Shown here: positions 41,837 through 45,996 of the stretch, piece after piece
How positions within the stretch are numbered: position 1 is the stretch's first letter
Layout of the letters: every line of letters begins with the position of its first letter
Source of the DNA: Verrucomicrobiota bacterium JB023
Lineage (GTDB): Bacteria > Verrucomicrobiota > Verrucomicrobiia > Verrucomicrobiales > Akkermansiaceae
Reading direction: 5' to 3'
DNA length: 64,000 nt
Assembly (NCBI GenBank): GCA_030673895.1
Contig: JAUTCR010000005.1
Coordinates: 1-64,000, forward strand
The notes under the pieces: generated by a model
Database searches by the model: none
What the model was told of the DNA's origin: nothing
Seen by the model: only the letters and a program-made list of their open reading frames with translations
Translations under genes and position numbers: made by a program

Positions 41837-43396
41837 TTAGCTAATGTTGAAGCGGTCACTGAGGGCCTCGGCAAACGTTTTTTCCAAGTCTTGATAGATT
41901 GAGACGTGTTCCGATACCGGGGCGAGGTCGCGCCCATCGGCGGGCGCGGATAATTTGTCTTCAAGAAAGGCGAGATCGGCGCCCGTGGCCACGGCGGCTC
42001 GAATGGCTGCCCCCAAGCCGGCCGAGCCAGAGACCGCTAGCCGCCGGACCGGCTTGCCAAAGACATCGGCCACCACTTGGGCAATGCCATCATTCTCGGA
42101 AGCTCCTCCAGTGAGGAGGATCTCCCCCTCACTATCCAATCCCAACCAACGGGAATGGAGTTTCATGTTGAGAAACTGGCCTTCCACGATGCCCCTGGCC
42201 CATTCCTCAGCAGTCGGCTTCCATCCGGGAGCCTGAGCCGAAGTCGAGTCAACCCGCGGAGTGATCTCATTCCCAACGAAGGGGATGATCACCCGACCGT
42301 CATTCCCCACCGGCGTGCGCGATAGCCCGTCGACTCCAAAGTCATTCCAGCTCAGGCCATACTCATCCTTGATCGCCTCACGAGCAAGAGAGCCATTGCG
42401 GAAACAGATGAGACTCATGAAGCCACCCATCGGATTACCAAAGGCATGGCCGAAGCCGCGCGGGTCAGTGAGCGGCTCATCCATGGCCGCGAACAAGGTA
42501 TCGCTGGTTCCCAGGCTGATCACCATCTTGCCAGCCCTCGAGGCACCCATCCCTACCAAGCTGCACGGATTGTCGCCCGACCACAGGAGGCTCTGACATT
42601 TCGGGGAAAACCCATAGCGCTTAACGAAATACGGTGAGATATCGCCGGCCACGCTCGCAGAAGGCTCCACCTCAGGCAGCTTCGCCCGCAGGTCGGGGGC
42701 CGTGGCAGTTAGGAGAGCGTCATCCCACTCCCCCGCAGCCAGGTTCATCAAGTTCATCCCCGCACCGTCGCCATAATCAATGGCAGCCGGACGACCGCTG
42801 AGGACACTGGCGAGGAAGGAGCTGACCAGATGGATGGAAGCCGTCTCCGCGTAAGCTTTTGGCTGAGTCTTATAAAATCGACGAATCTGCGGCCCCGTGA
42901 AGCGCTCAATCGCCTCCGAACCCGAGCGCTTCCGCACCTCGTCCGCACCTCCCAACGCATCCGTGATTTCGCGGCACTCCGGCCCGGTTGACGTATCCAT
43001 CCAGATCGGCGAGGTCTCGCGAGTGAGACAAGCACCGATCTGCCCTGCCAATGGCGCAGTCTCGTCGAGAGAAGATAAGACCTGCCCGAAATCACCCGAA
43101 AGATAAACGCTGCCATGCTGCTGACCAGAGCCGGAGACAGAGGCGATTGAGGAGAAATCGACGCCCTCCTCCTTCATGCGGTCGAGAAGGAGATTGAGAG
43201 CATCCAACCAAAGGAGGGGGTTGGCATGAACCTCCCCCGCTTCTCCTCCCGGGAGAAATCCCGAGGGGTGATTGTATCGAGGGAGGTCGGCACCGAAGTT
43301 GACCGACCAGCTTCCTAACACCTCTCCATCAGTCCAATCGACCAAGACAGCCGAGAGGCTTTGGGTCGAGGCATCCAAACCTAGCGAATTTTTCAT
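41837..43396 (-). CDS. xylB: Xylulokinase (FGGY-family carbohydrate kinase)
   Basis: 519 residues. N-terminal phosphate loop SLGLDASTQSLSAVLVDW, the substrate motif ASVSGSGQQHGSVYL near residue 85, MVISLGTSDTLFA near 292, and the ADP site ILLTGGASENDGIAQVVADV near 427 with GSAGLGAAIRAAV near 463. It phosphorylates D-xylulose to D-xylulose 5-phosphate. Located downstream of xylA, with 324 bases between them that contain the proposed antisense small RNA and a palindrome. ATG at 43396 has only a weak ribosome site. Confidence 0.93.
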   Translation of the reverse strand: MKNSLGLDASTQSLSAVLVDWTDGEVLGSWSVNFGADLPRYNHPSGFLPGGEAGEVHANPLLWLDALNLLLDRMKEEGVDFSSIASVSGSGQQHGSVYLSGDFGQVLSSLDETAPLAGQIGACLTRETSPIWMDTSTGPECREITDALGGADEVRKRSGSEAIERFTGPQIRRFYKTQPKAYAETASIHLVSSFLASVLSGRPAAIDYGDGAGMNLMNLAAGEWDDALLTATAPDLRAKLPEVEPSASVAGDISPYFVKRYGFSPKCQSLLWSGDNPCSLVGMGASRAGKMVISLGTSDTLFAAMDEPLTDPRGFGHAFGNPMGGFMSLICFRNGSLAREAIKDEYGLSWNDFGVDGLSRTPVGNDGRVIIPFVGNEITPRVDSTSAQAPGWKPTAEEWARGIVEGQFLNMKLHSRWLGLDSEGEILLTGGASENDGIAQVVADVFGKPVRRLAVSGSAGLGAAIRAAVATGADLAFLEDKLSAPADGRDLAPVSEHVSIYQDLEKTFAEALSDRFNIS

Positions 43397-43448: not shown

Positions 43449-43472
43449 TTTCCGATGACTTTTTATCGGAAA
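43449..43472. promoter_or_regulatory. Palindrome upstream of the sigma-54 promoter
   Basis: Perfect 8-bp arms TTTCCGAT (43449-43456) and ATCGGAAA (43465-43472) around an 8-base spacer. Its centre is about 62 bases before the predicted start of the small RNA and about 65 bases before the xylB start on the other strand. It may bind a dimeric regulator, either an enhancer-binding protein for the sigma-54 promoter or a regulator of xylB. It could also form an RNA stem in the xylB leader. Confidence 0.45.
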
Positions 43473-43496
43473 AATACGGCGCTCGCTTCGTTTAAT

Positions 43497-43512
43497 TGGC
43501 ACGGGCAATGCT
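43497..43512 (+). promoter_or_regulatory. Sigma-54 (RpoN) promoter
   Basis: TGGCACGGGCAATGCT matches the sigma-54 consensus TGGCACGrNNNTTGCW at every defined position but one (A for the first T of TTGC), with the obligatory ten bases between GG and GC. The -12 C is at 43511, which puts the start of transcription at about 43523, on the plus strand. That is exactly where the folded RNA begins. Confidence 0.75.
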
Positions 43513-43521
43513 CTATCCTAG

Positions 43522-43625
43522 ATGCCGTGTTGCTTGATAAGGCGCGAGAGCTGGAAGTGGTTTCATGGGTTTTTCCACCAAAGCTCTCGCGCCCCTTCTT
43601 TTGAAGTGCACGGCATTTTTATTTT
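43522..43625 (+). ncRNA. Proposed sigma-54-dependent small RNA, antisense to the xylA-xylB spacer
   Basis: Predicted 5' end about 43522 from the sigma-54 promoter. The outer stem pairs 43522-43529 (ATGCCGTG) with 43609-43616 (CACGGCAT). A 12-bp perfect inner stem pairs 43541-43552 (GGCGCGAGAGCT) with 43582-43593, capped by an alternative GTGG/CCAC or GGAA/TTCC apical stem. A small CTTC-TTTT-GAAG hairpin lies on the 3' side. The outer stem runs straight into TTTTTATTTT, which fits an intrinsic terminator for the plus strand. A reading frame starting at 43522 has no coding character. No known family was recognised. Confidence 0.6.
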
Positions 43626-43720: not shown

Positions 43721-45031
43721 TTAAAGATAGCTGTTGAGGAGATTCTCAAGATACTCCTGACGTCCACTCCGCAAGCTTGGAGCCTCGATCGACAGAGCAT
43801 GCGCATCGAGCGAGTCGAGGCTGACTTCGCCGGTCTCCACTTGCGCTCCAATTCCTGAGTCGAAGCTCGCGTAGCGTTCCTTGATGAAGGAAGCGAACTT
43901 TCCGTCTTCAATGATTTTGGCCGCAATCTTAAGCCCTCTCGCGAAAGCGTCCATTCCGCCGATGTGAGCATGGAACAAATCTTCCGGCTCGTGGGATTCC
44001 CGGCGACGCTTGGCATCGAAATTGAGACCACCTTTGGTGAATCCGCCCATCCGGAGCACCTCAATCATCACCGAGGTCGTCTCGTAGATATTGGTCGGGA
44101 ACTGATCCGTATCCCAGCCCAGCAACTCGTCACCCCGGTTGGCATCGATGGAACCAAGCGCGCCGGCCGCAATCGCGGTTTGCAGCTCATGCTGCATGGT
44201 ATGGCCAGCCAAGGTCGCGTGATTGGTCTCAATGTTCAGCTGGAAATGGTCGAGCAGATCATATTGACGGAGGAAATTGAGGCAAGCGGCGGCATCGCTA
44301 TCGTATTGATGGGTTGTCGGTTCGCGCGGCTTGGGCTCGATAAAGAATTGCCCTTCGAACCCGATCTTCTTGGCGTGATCGACCGCCAGATGGAGGAACC
44401 GGGCCAGATGATCCAGCTCCCGCTTCATGTCGGTGTTGATGAGTGCGCCGTAGCCTTCACGTCCCCCCCAGAAGACGTAGCCCGTGCCGCCCAAGCGATG
44501 GGTGGCTTCCAAGGCATGCTTCACCTGACTCGCCGCGTAGGCATAGACGTCAGCGCTGGGCGAGGTCGCAGCCCCGTGAGCATAGCGAGGGTGGCCGAAG
44601 AGGCAGGCTGTGCCCCAAAGCAAGCCCTTGCCGGTTTCCTTTTGGAATTTCTCAAATTCTTCAACGACCCGACCGAACATCTCATGGGTCTCCCCCAAGC
44701 TTTTACCTTCCGGCGAGATGTCCCGGTCGTGGAAGCAGTAGAGGTCGATATCAATCTTCTCGAGGAACTCGAAGAAAACGGGAACGCGGGCAAGCGCATT
44801 GTCCAATGAGTCGGACCCATCATCCCATGGCGTGAGTGCGGTTCCTTCGCCAAAGGGATCGCCGAGAGGGTTCCTCATGACATGCCAATAGGGCGCGGCA
44901 AAGCGGAGATGATCGCGCATGCTTTTACCGGCCACAACTTCATCCGGATTGTAGTGCTTGAAGGCAAAAGGATTGTCAGAATCGGGGCCTTCGTATTTAA
45001 TTTTGGGAATATTCGGGAAGAAATCGCTCAT
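43721..45031 (-). CDS. xylA: Xylose isomerase
   Basis: 436 residues, the class II size. [20 protein letters not shown] near residue 48, [15 protein letters not shown] with the catalytic His near 99, [10 protein letters not shown] near 184, [16 protein letters not shown] near 230 with metal Glu, and [18 protein letters not shown] near 295 are the full set of active-site blocks. It converts D-xylose to D-xylulose with divalent metal. It is divergent from the PAS-AraC regulator (173-base gap) and upstream of xylB. Substrate range may include glucose in vitro, as for the family. Confidence 0.97.
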
Positions 45032-45204: not shown

Positions 45205-45996
45205 ATGAATTCAATCGCCACTGCGGCATCGGCAGCAAACAGCCGCGAAATAAGCAAACGGGATGATTTTGTCAGTCAGCTGGCACCCGGCCAGGTCGCG
45301 CTGGAACTGTTTGATCATTTGCCGGATGTCCTATTTTGGCTCAAAGACCACGAATCCAAATTCATTTACGTCAACAAGACCTACGAGAACGTGATTGGCT
45401 TGGGTCTCGACGAGCTACAAGGCCGGACGGACCTTGACTACTTTGCCCGGGAATTGGCTTCCATCTATATTGAAGACGACCGCCGGGTGGTCAGCTCGGG
45501 CAAGTCCTTGCCGAAGAAAATGGAACTCGTCACCCGCTGCTCGGGTAATGTCGAGTGGCGTGCTACGTCCAAGATTCCCCTGACTGCTGACAATGGCATG
45601 ATCATCGGCACCGCAGGCATTTGTCGTCCCCTCCACCGTGAAGAGGGCCAACCACTGCCCTTCCATCAGCGTGAGACAACGCAGCTCGTCGATTACATCT
45701 ACGACAATATCGAGAAGCAGTTGGGCGTCGAGGACTTGGCTAGCCGCGCCAGAATGTCCGTCTCGACCTTGGAGAGACGCTTCCGCAAGCAATTCGGCGT
45801 CACGCCAAAACGGTTTGTGCTGCAAGCCAAAGTCGCCGCCGCGTGCGAACAACTTATTGCCACCGACAAGACGATTCGGGAGATCTCCGACACACTCGGG
45901 TTTGCCGAGCACTCGTCGTTCACCCGCGCCTTCACCGCCATCATGAGCATTTCCCCGCTGAAATACCGGAAACACTACAAACAGAGGGTCCTCTGA
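45205..45996 (+). CDS. AraC-family regulator with N-terminal PAS domain (putative xylose-operon regulator)
   Basis: 263 residues. A PAS domain lies at about 32-145 (LFDHLPDVLFWLKDHESKFI, YVNKTYENVIGLGLDELQGR, WRATSKIPL). An AraC-type double helix-turn-helix fills about 165-263 (LGVEDLASRARMSVSTLERR, IREISDTLGFAEHSSFTRAF, PLKYRKHYK). E. coli XylR uses a periplasmic-binding-type sugar domain instead, so the signal sensed here may differ. Divergent from xylA, which suggests it controls the xylose genes. The stop lies one base from that of the class IV aminotransferase (convergent). Confidence 0.9.
   Translation: MNSIATAASAANSREISKRDDFVSQLAPGQVALELFDHLPDVLFWLKDHESKFIYVNKTYENVIGLGLDELQGRTDLDYFARELASIYIEDDRRVVSSGKSLPKKMELVTRCSGNVEWRATSKIPLTADNGMIIGTAGICRPLHREEGQPLPFHQRETTQLVDYIYDNIEKQLGVEDLASRARMSVSTLERRFRKQFGVTPKRFVLQAKVAAACEQLIATDKTIREISDTLGFAEHSSFTRAFTAIMSISPLKYRKHYKQRVL

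Follow-up and report, generated by a model that had tools for sequence, protein, structure and literature searches.

A candidate sigma-54-type small RNA gene opposite the xylA-xylB spacer of a Roseibacillus-like bacterium, with relatives across Verrucomicrobiales

The xylA-xylB spacer and its features

The window analysed here (a stretch of 64,000 nucleotides, part of contig C5) comes from a 4.03-Mb genome that belongs to the same genus as the genomes termed G001, G002 and G003. Its nearest xylB loci with a species or genus name are those of Roseibacillus persicicus, R. ishigakijimensis and a Roseibacillus MAG, and the genome is thus Roseibacillus-like (Verrucomicrobiota). Within the window, the genes for a xylose isomerase and a carbohydrate kinase, both on the minus strand, are separated by a spacer of 324 bp, for which a sequence-only reading had proposed a sigma-54-dependent small RNA on the strand opposite to both genes. 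That orientation is correct, and the features of the locus are as follows.

41837-43396, minus strand: xylB-like FGGY carbohydrate kinase (Pfam FGGY_N/FGGY_C)
43496-43512, plus strand: sigma-54-type promoter TTGGCACGGGCAATGCT (-24/-12), one mismatch; spacing unchanged in G001-G003 and in relatives belonging to three more genera
43521-43540, plus strand: predicted start (from the distance to the -12 element) and 5' segment GAUGCCGUGUUGCUUGAUAA, which is exposed; most copies at xyl loci retain a CCGUGU motif
43541-43593, plus strand: conserved hairpin, supported by fold and covariation, with a 12-bp stem, an internal loop and a GUGG/CCAC apical stem
43561-43574, plus strand: apical loop UUUCAUGGGUUUUU with the family core UGGGUUUU, the most conserved segment of the RNA
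43594-43602, plus strand: U-rich tail CCUUCUUUU after the hairpin, a probable intrinsic terminator, weak here (CUUUUUUU in G001)
43609-43625, plus strand: CACGGCAT and TTTTTATTTT, overlapping by one T, which provide the 3' arm of an outer stem of 8 bp and possibly a second terminator; not kept in the closest relatives
43721-45031, minus strand: xylA-like xylose isomerase (Pfam xylose-isomerase-like TIM barrel); in related genomes the element lies next to the xylA ortholog

Several further observations concern the surroundings of these features. The gene for a PAS-AraC regulator (45205-45996), which likely controls the xyl genes, lies divergent from xylA and is found at the same position in four related genomes. 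An inverted repeat, TTTCCGATGACTTTTTATCGGAAA, occupies 43449-43472, some 48 bases before the sigma-54 site, and no counterpart of it was found in relatives. Roseibacillus persicicus (G001) possesses a second xylA (L016/L017, G001:C22:70239-72300) that is 86% identical to that of the window and has no sRNA detected downstream, while its sRNA-bearing xylA copy (C9) is 83% identical to that of the window.

Promoter and fold in a single genome

The motif TGGCACGGGCAATGCT at 43497-43512 (plus strand) matches the sigma-54 consensus with correct GG-N10-GC spacing and, as had been reported from the sequence, with one mismatch (T to A at 43508). Counted from the -12 C at 43511, the predicted start falls at about 43521-43524 (plus strand) and the outer arm of the fold begins at 43522, in agreement with the earlier placement of the start near 43523, at the foot of the folded RNA. 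An rpoN gene was found in the same genome (E 3.7e-58) and in 130 of 141 genomes of the taxonomic family. The nitrogen, stress and surface signals that had been suggested for the RNA represent the general range of sigma-54; a search upstream of 33 copies found no shared dyad or enhancer-binding-protein site. The match to the consensus is the sole such site in the window, where 0.64 are expected by chance, and the pattern occurs 32 times genome-wide, versus 29 times for a reversed control pattern; as evidence standing alone, it was rejected because this frequency is at chance level in both the window and the genome.

Both of the perfect stems that had been described are present: an inner stem of 12 bp (arms 43541-43552 and 43582-43593) and an outer stem of 8 bp (arms 43522-43529 and 43609-43616), the latter closing onto TTTTTATTTT at 43616-43625. 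The minimum free energy of the fold is -44.7 kcal/mol versus -27.4 +/- 3.1 for shuffled sequences (z -5.5, with none of 200 shuffles as low). On the minus strand, the mirror-image hairpin is about as well folded (z -5.2), so that folding alone does not give the strand of the RNA. With a promoter motif at chance frequency and a hairpin available on both strands, a single sequence could not establish the claim, and the comparison with other genomes decides.

A simple terminator scan returned nothing at this locus, a blank that follows from its permitted loop size of at most 8 bases. A hairpin followed by a U tract is clear in G001, in one copy (copy a) of G028 and in most relatives away from xyl loci; the tract is weak in the present genome and absent in many copies of genus g16, which leaves the exact 3' end uncertain.

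Conservation and covariation at xyl loci

A DNA search of 58 genomes recovered the block at about 43489-43603 in all three other Roseibacillus genomes (G001-G003, 77-83% identity) and, as a shorter match found twice, in G028, which belongs to another genus; each of these blocks lies between xylA and xylB, in antisense orientation. The conserved unit, which extends over the same interval, consists of the promoter, the 5' segment, the inner hairpin and the U-rich tail. In the alignment the promoter is nearly invariant and both the 5' segment GAUGCCGUGUUGCUUGA and the loop are kept, while the intervening stem varies. Comparison of 60 xylA-downstream regions from the taxonomic family extended the combination of a sigma-54 site with a related hairpin to genera g8, g9 and g16, including five g16 genomes with two tandem copies, each preceded by its own sigma-54 site (at most 2 mismatches). 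All convincing xyl-locus matches, across four genera, are found on the antisense strand, and the weak matches on the opposite strand coincide in position with these and mirror them. In two loci of genus g9 (L024 and L092) the promoter, 5' segment and stem are kept and the apical loop differs, lacking GGGUUUU. Protein coding was considered for the block and rejected, as a one-base length difference in the 5' segment, between this genome and G001/G002, breaks the frame.

The expectation that promoter and stems would be conserved together in close relatives was thus borne out for the promoter, its spacing and the inner hairpin; the outer stem and the T run that it closes onto, although present in this genome as described, are absent from the three closest relatives (G001-G003), and were rejected as a conserved terminator on that ground. 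The outer stem of this genome, of which some g16 copies show a partial counterpart, may be a lineage-private second terminator or a chance by-product of the conserved CCGUG motif.

Compensatory changes, for which a search in both stems had been suggested as a check, are seen in the inner one. In a MAFFT alignment of 11 copies, which was not fitted to a structure, 12 of the 16 pairs of the inner hairpin have changed on both sides and 90% of cells are paired; the covariation score was reached by none of 500 shuffles, and slid controls scored much lower. A wider alignment gives 14 of 16 pairs changed on both sides and 94% paired, figures that lean toward structure because that alignment was fitted to the model. 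Plus-strand G.U pairs outnumber A.C combinations (the minus-strand counterpart of G.U) by 14:1 in the 11-copy alignment, an asymmetry that points to the plus strand as the probable RNA strand and is supporting rather than decisive, since the cells of an alignment are not independent.

A wider family and its two promoter classes

Whether hairpin and promoter belong together can be judged from models that contain no promoter sequence. The first covariance model, built from the RNA part only, produced matches in 56 of the 260 genomes searched in the taxonomic family, and 23 of 42 aligned matches carry a sigma-54 site (at most 2 mismatches) within 45 bases upstream, versus about 1% of random stretches. 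Some of the seeds of that model had been chosen partly for their promoter, so that relatives away from the xyl locus offer the cleaner test. Among 49 such matches to a second, wider model, 16 have a sigma-54 site at the same offset, from -26 to -22 (background 0.10%). In a further 14 a TTGAC lies about 31-35 bases upstream (background 0.39%), a box that suggests a sigma-70-like promoter class. Among the 16, L231 runs a little way into a predicted ORF and is possibly spurious.

The second model finds the family in 140 of 387 genomes of Verrucomicrobiales, with up to 9 matches per genome. Genus g3 yields only two weak matches near the threshold. Matches are weak also in a second family of the order, where they occur in 29 of 75 genomes; the sequences there follow the same layout, with UUUUACGGGGGUUUUU among their loops, and a sigma-54 site (at most 2 mismatches) lies upstream in 8 of the 20 that were examined. 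The outer edge of the RNA family is less certain than its core, since these weak matches come from a model trained on earlier matches. Genes flanking the copies vary between loci: in other genera, relatives that share the loop, and in many cases the promoter, stand alone at unrelated sites, and the order of promoter and hairpin is kept. Several copies and tandem arrays per genome also occur in other genera; a multi-copy repeat in the genome of the window was considered and rejected, as a single copy was found. Four loci of genus g7 (L233, L234, L244 and L246) carry a copy with a TTGAC-type box that is divergent from, and 140-143 bases away from, a biotin-carboxylase-like gene (named by eye from its sequence, with no profile search), and at L232 (G069:C1:2242295-2242820) three copies are arranged in tandem within about 530 bases.

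The earlier reading knew of no described RNA of this kind at a xylose locus. No Rfam family reached its gathering cut-off, and permissive thresholds applied to three short stretches also gave no match. Among the papers listed in a literature search, none linked sRNAs with Roseibacillus, and none was relevant to sRNAs of Verrucomicrobia or to antisense RNA at xylose loci. A review puts the number of distinct sRNAs annotated across the entire PVC group at only 8 (PMC9029176). The proposal of a sigma-54-type small RNA gene is well supported by conservation, covariation and the independent promoter test, the transcript itself being predicted, and a previously uncatalogued sRNA family across Verrucomicrobiales, within the known functional class of sigma-54-dependent sRNAs, is likewise well supported from sequence comparison.

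Comparison with known small RNAs

The Qrr RNAs use Hfq, of which none was detected in the present genome, and they exist as several paralogues in some species, a likeness to the family described here. A second likeness lies in the promoter, since the Qrr genes of Vibrionaceae are sigma-54-dependent and have -24/-12 elements (PMC10162802) of the type predicted for the xyl-spacer RNA. CrcZ and CrcY of Pseudomonadaceae are RpoN-dependent sRNAs tied to carbon metabolism (PMC6292655), to be set beside a predicted sigma-54 RNA at a xylose locus; they differ in acting on the Hfq-Crc system, whereas the new RNA has a single loop and its genome no Hfq match. GlmY and GlmZ differ in size and fold from the xyl-spacer RNA, which is further distinguished from them, and from Qrr, by having no match in Rfam. 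Their promoters, however, are sigma-54, sigma-70 or both according to species, for what are homologous sRNAs (PMC4098024), and this variation resembles the two promoter classes (sigma-54 and TTGAC) of the new family. Cis-antisense RNAs inside bacterial operons share with it a position opposite an intercistronic spacer; in contrast to them, the new family also lies at many other loci, and its antisense position opposite xylAB looks incidental for that reason. As far as anatomy shows, the xyl-spacer RNA would act like the sigma-54-dependent sRNAs Qrr, CrcZ/CrcY and GlmY/GlmZ.

Mode of action and alternative explanations

The locus is probably a gene for a trans-acting sRNA, driven by sigma-54 and independent of Hfq, that pairs with mRNAs through its loop and 5' segment. 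Comparison supplies the conserved unit, the strand, the covariation, the promoter association and the family; transcription, rpoN dependence, action in trans and the existence of targets are what we infer from these. Sigma-54 RNA polymerase, switched on by an enhancer-binding protein, would begin transcription on the plus strand near 43521-43524. The product would be roughly 80 nt long, or as much as about 105 nt with termination at the second T run; its 5' segment would be exposed and followed by a long hairpin, whose open, G/U-rich loop contains the core UGGGUUUU. Loop and 5' segment would then pair with mRNAs in trans without Hfq, for which no match was found in the genome (97.5% complete, with positive controls detected; a divergent chaperone is possible). 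A promoter, a loop and (in the xyl group) a 5' segment that are shared, together with a stem that is free to change as long as it remains paired, are what would be expected if the loop and 5' end are the acting parts.

That same pattern, a loop core kept on a freely varying stem, would also be seen if the loop bound and sequestered an RNA-binding protein in the manner of CrcZ or CsrB, with no base pairing. The several copies and tandem arrays in other genera agree with such titration; the single loop of each RNA and the single copy in this genome do not, and with no Hfq match and no candidate protein identified this explanation is unlikely.

A more local role had been put forward initially, in which the RNA uncouples isomerase from kinase expression: the plus-strand RNA, or its transcription, would act on the xylAB mRNA or operon and shift the isomerase:kinase ratio. 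In favour of it, the clear-scoring xyl-locus matches of four genera all lie on the antisense strand of this one spacer, promoter and xylB start overlap in G028, G159 and G281 (in G028, TTGGCATGATCGTTGCT overlaps the start codon), and complementarity to the spacer is perfect, although automatically so. However, the family is not confined to the xyl operon, the xyl spacers of many xylA-bearing genera are without the RNA, and the xylB start is a poor partner for its exposed parts. When loop and 5' segment were compared with 336 predicted translation starts in a 424-kb stretch of contig C5, using crude ORF calls and hence crude gene starts, the xylB start ranked 334 of 336 for the 5' segment and 115 of 336 for the loop (whose apparent preference for translation starts is confounded, its CAU matching AUG). 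Control of xylAB in cis is thus rather improbable as the main role, given the relatives at unrelated loci, and the antisense position is probably secondary. Action in trans, which the sequence-only reading had offered as its alternative, fits those relatives better, and may be accompanied by an additional cis effect on xylAB.

It is highly improbable that the hairpin works instead on the sense strand, as a processing or stability element of the xylAB mRNA that sets differing levels of xylA and xylB: the minus-strand fold and the position between both genes would suit it, but the G.U asymmetry favours the plus strand, the U tract and the sigma-54 site lie at fixed spacing on that strand, and the order of promoter and hairpin persists in relatives outside xyl loci. 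A random sigma-54 match beside a random hairpin or terminator, for which the chance-level frequency of the motif alone might speak, is scarcely credible against the conservation, the covariation and the fixed promoter-hairpin offset.

Implications for riboregulation in Verrucomicrobiota

Beyond the predicted trans-acting sRNA of this genome, a broader proposal can be offered tentatively, and with rather less than even confidence: that the family constitutes an order-wide set of Hfq-independent trans RNAs, each with a G3-5U3-5 loop that is conserved while the stem beneath it changes freely, and that individual copies have switched between sigma-54 promoters and promoters of a sigma-70-like type. 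If true, such switching would place a common set of targets under signals that differ from lineage to lineage. The family provides a concrete entry to riboregulation and to the use of sigma-54 in Verrucomicrobiota, apparently without Hfq, and since cultured Roseibacillus species carry the RNA gene, direct testing is possible.
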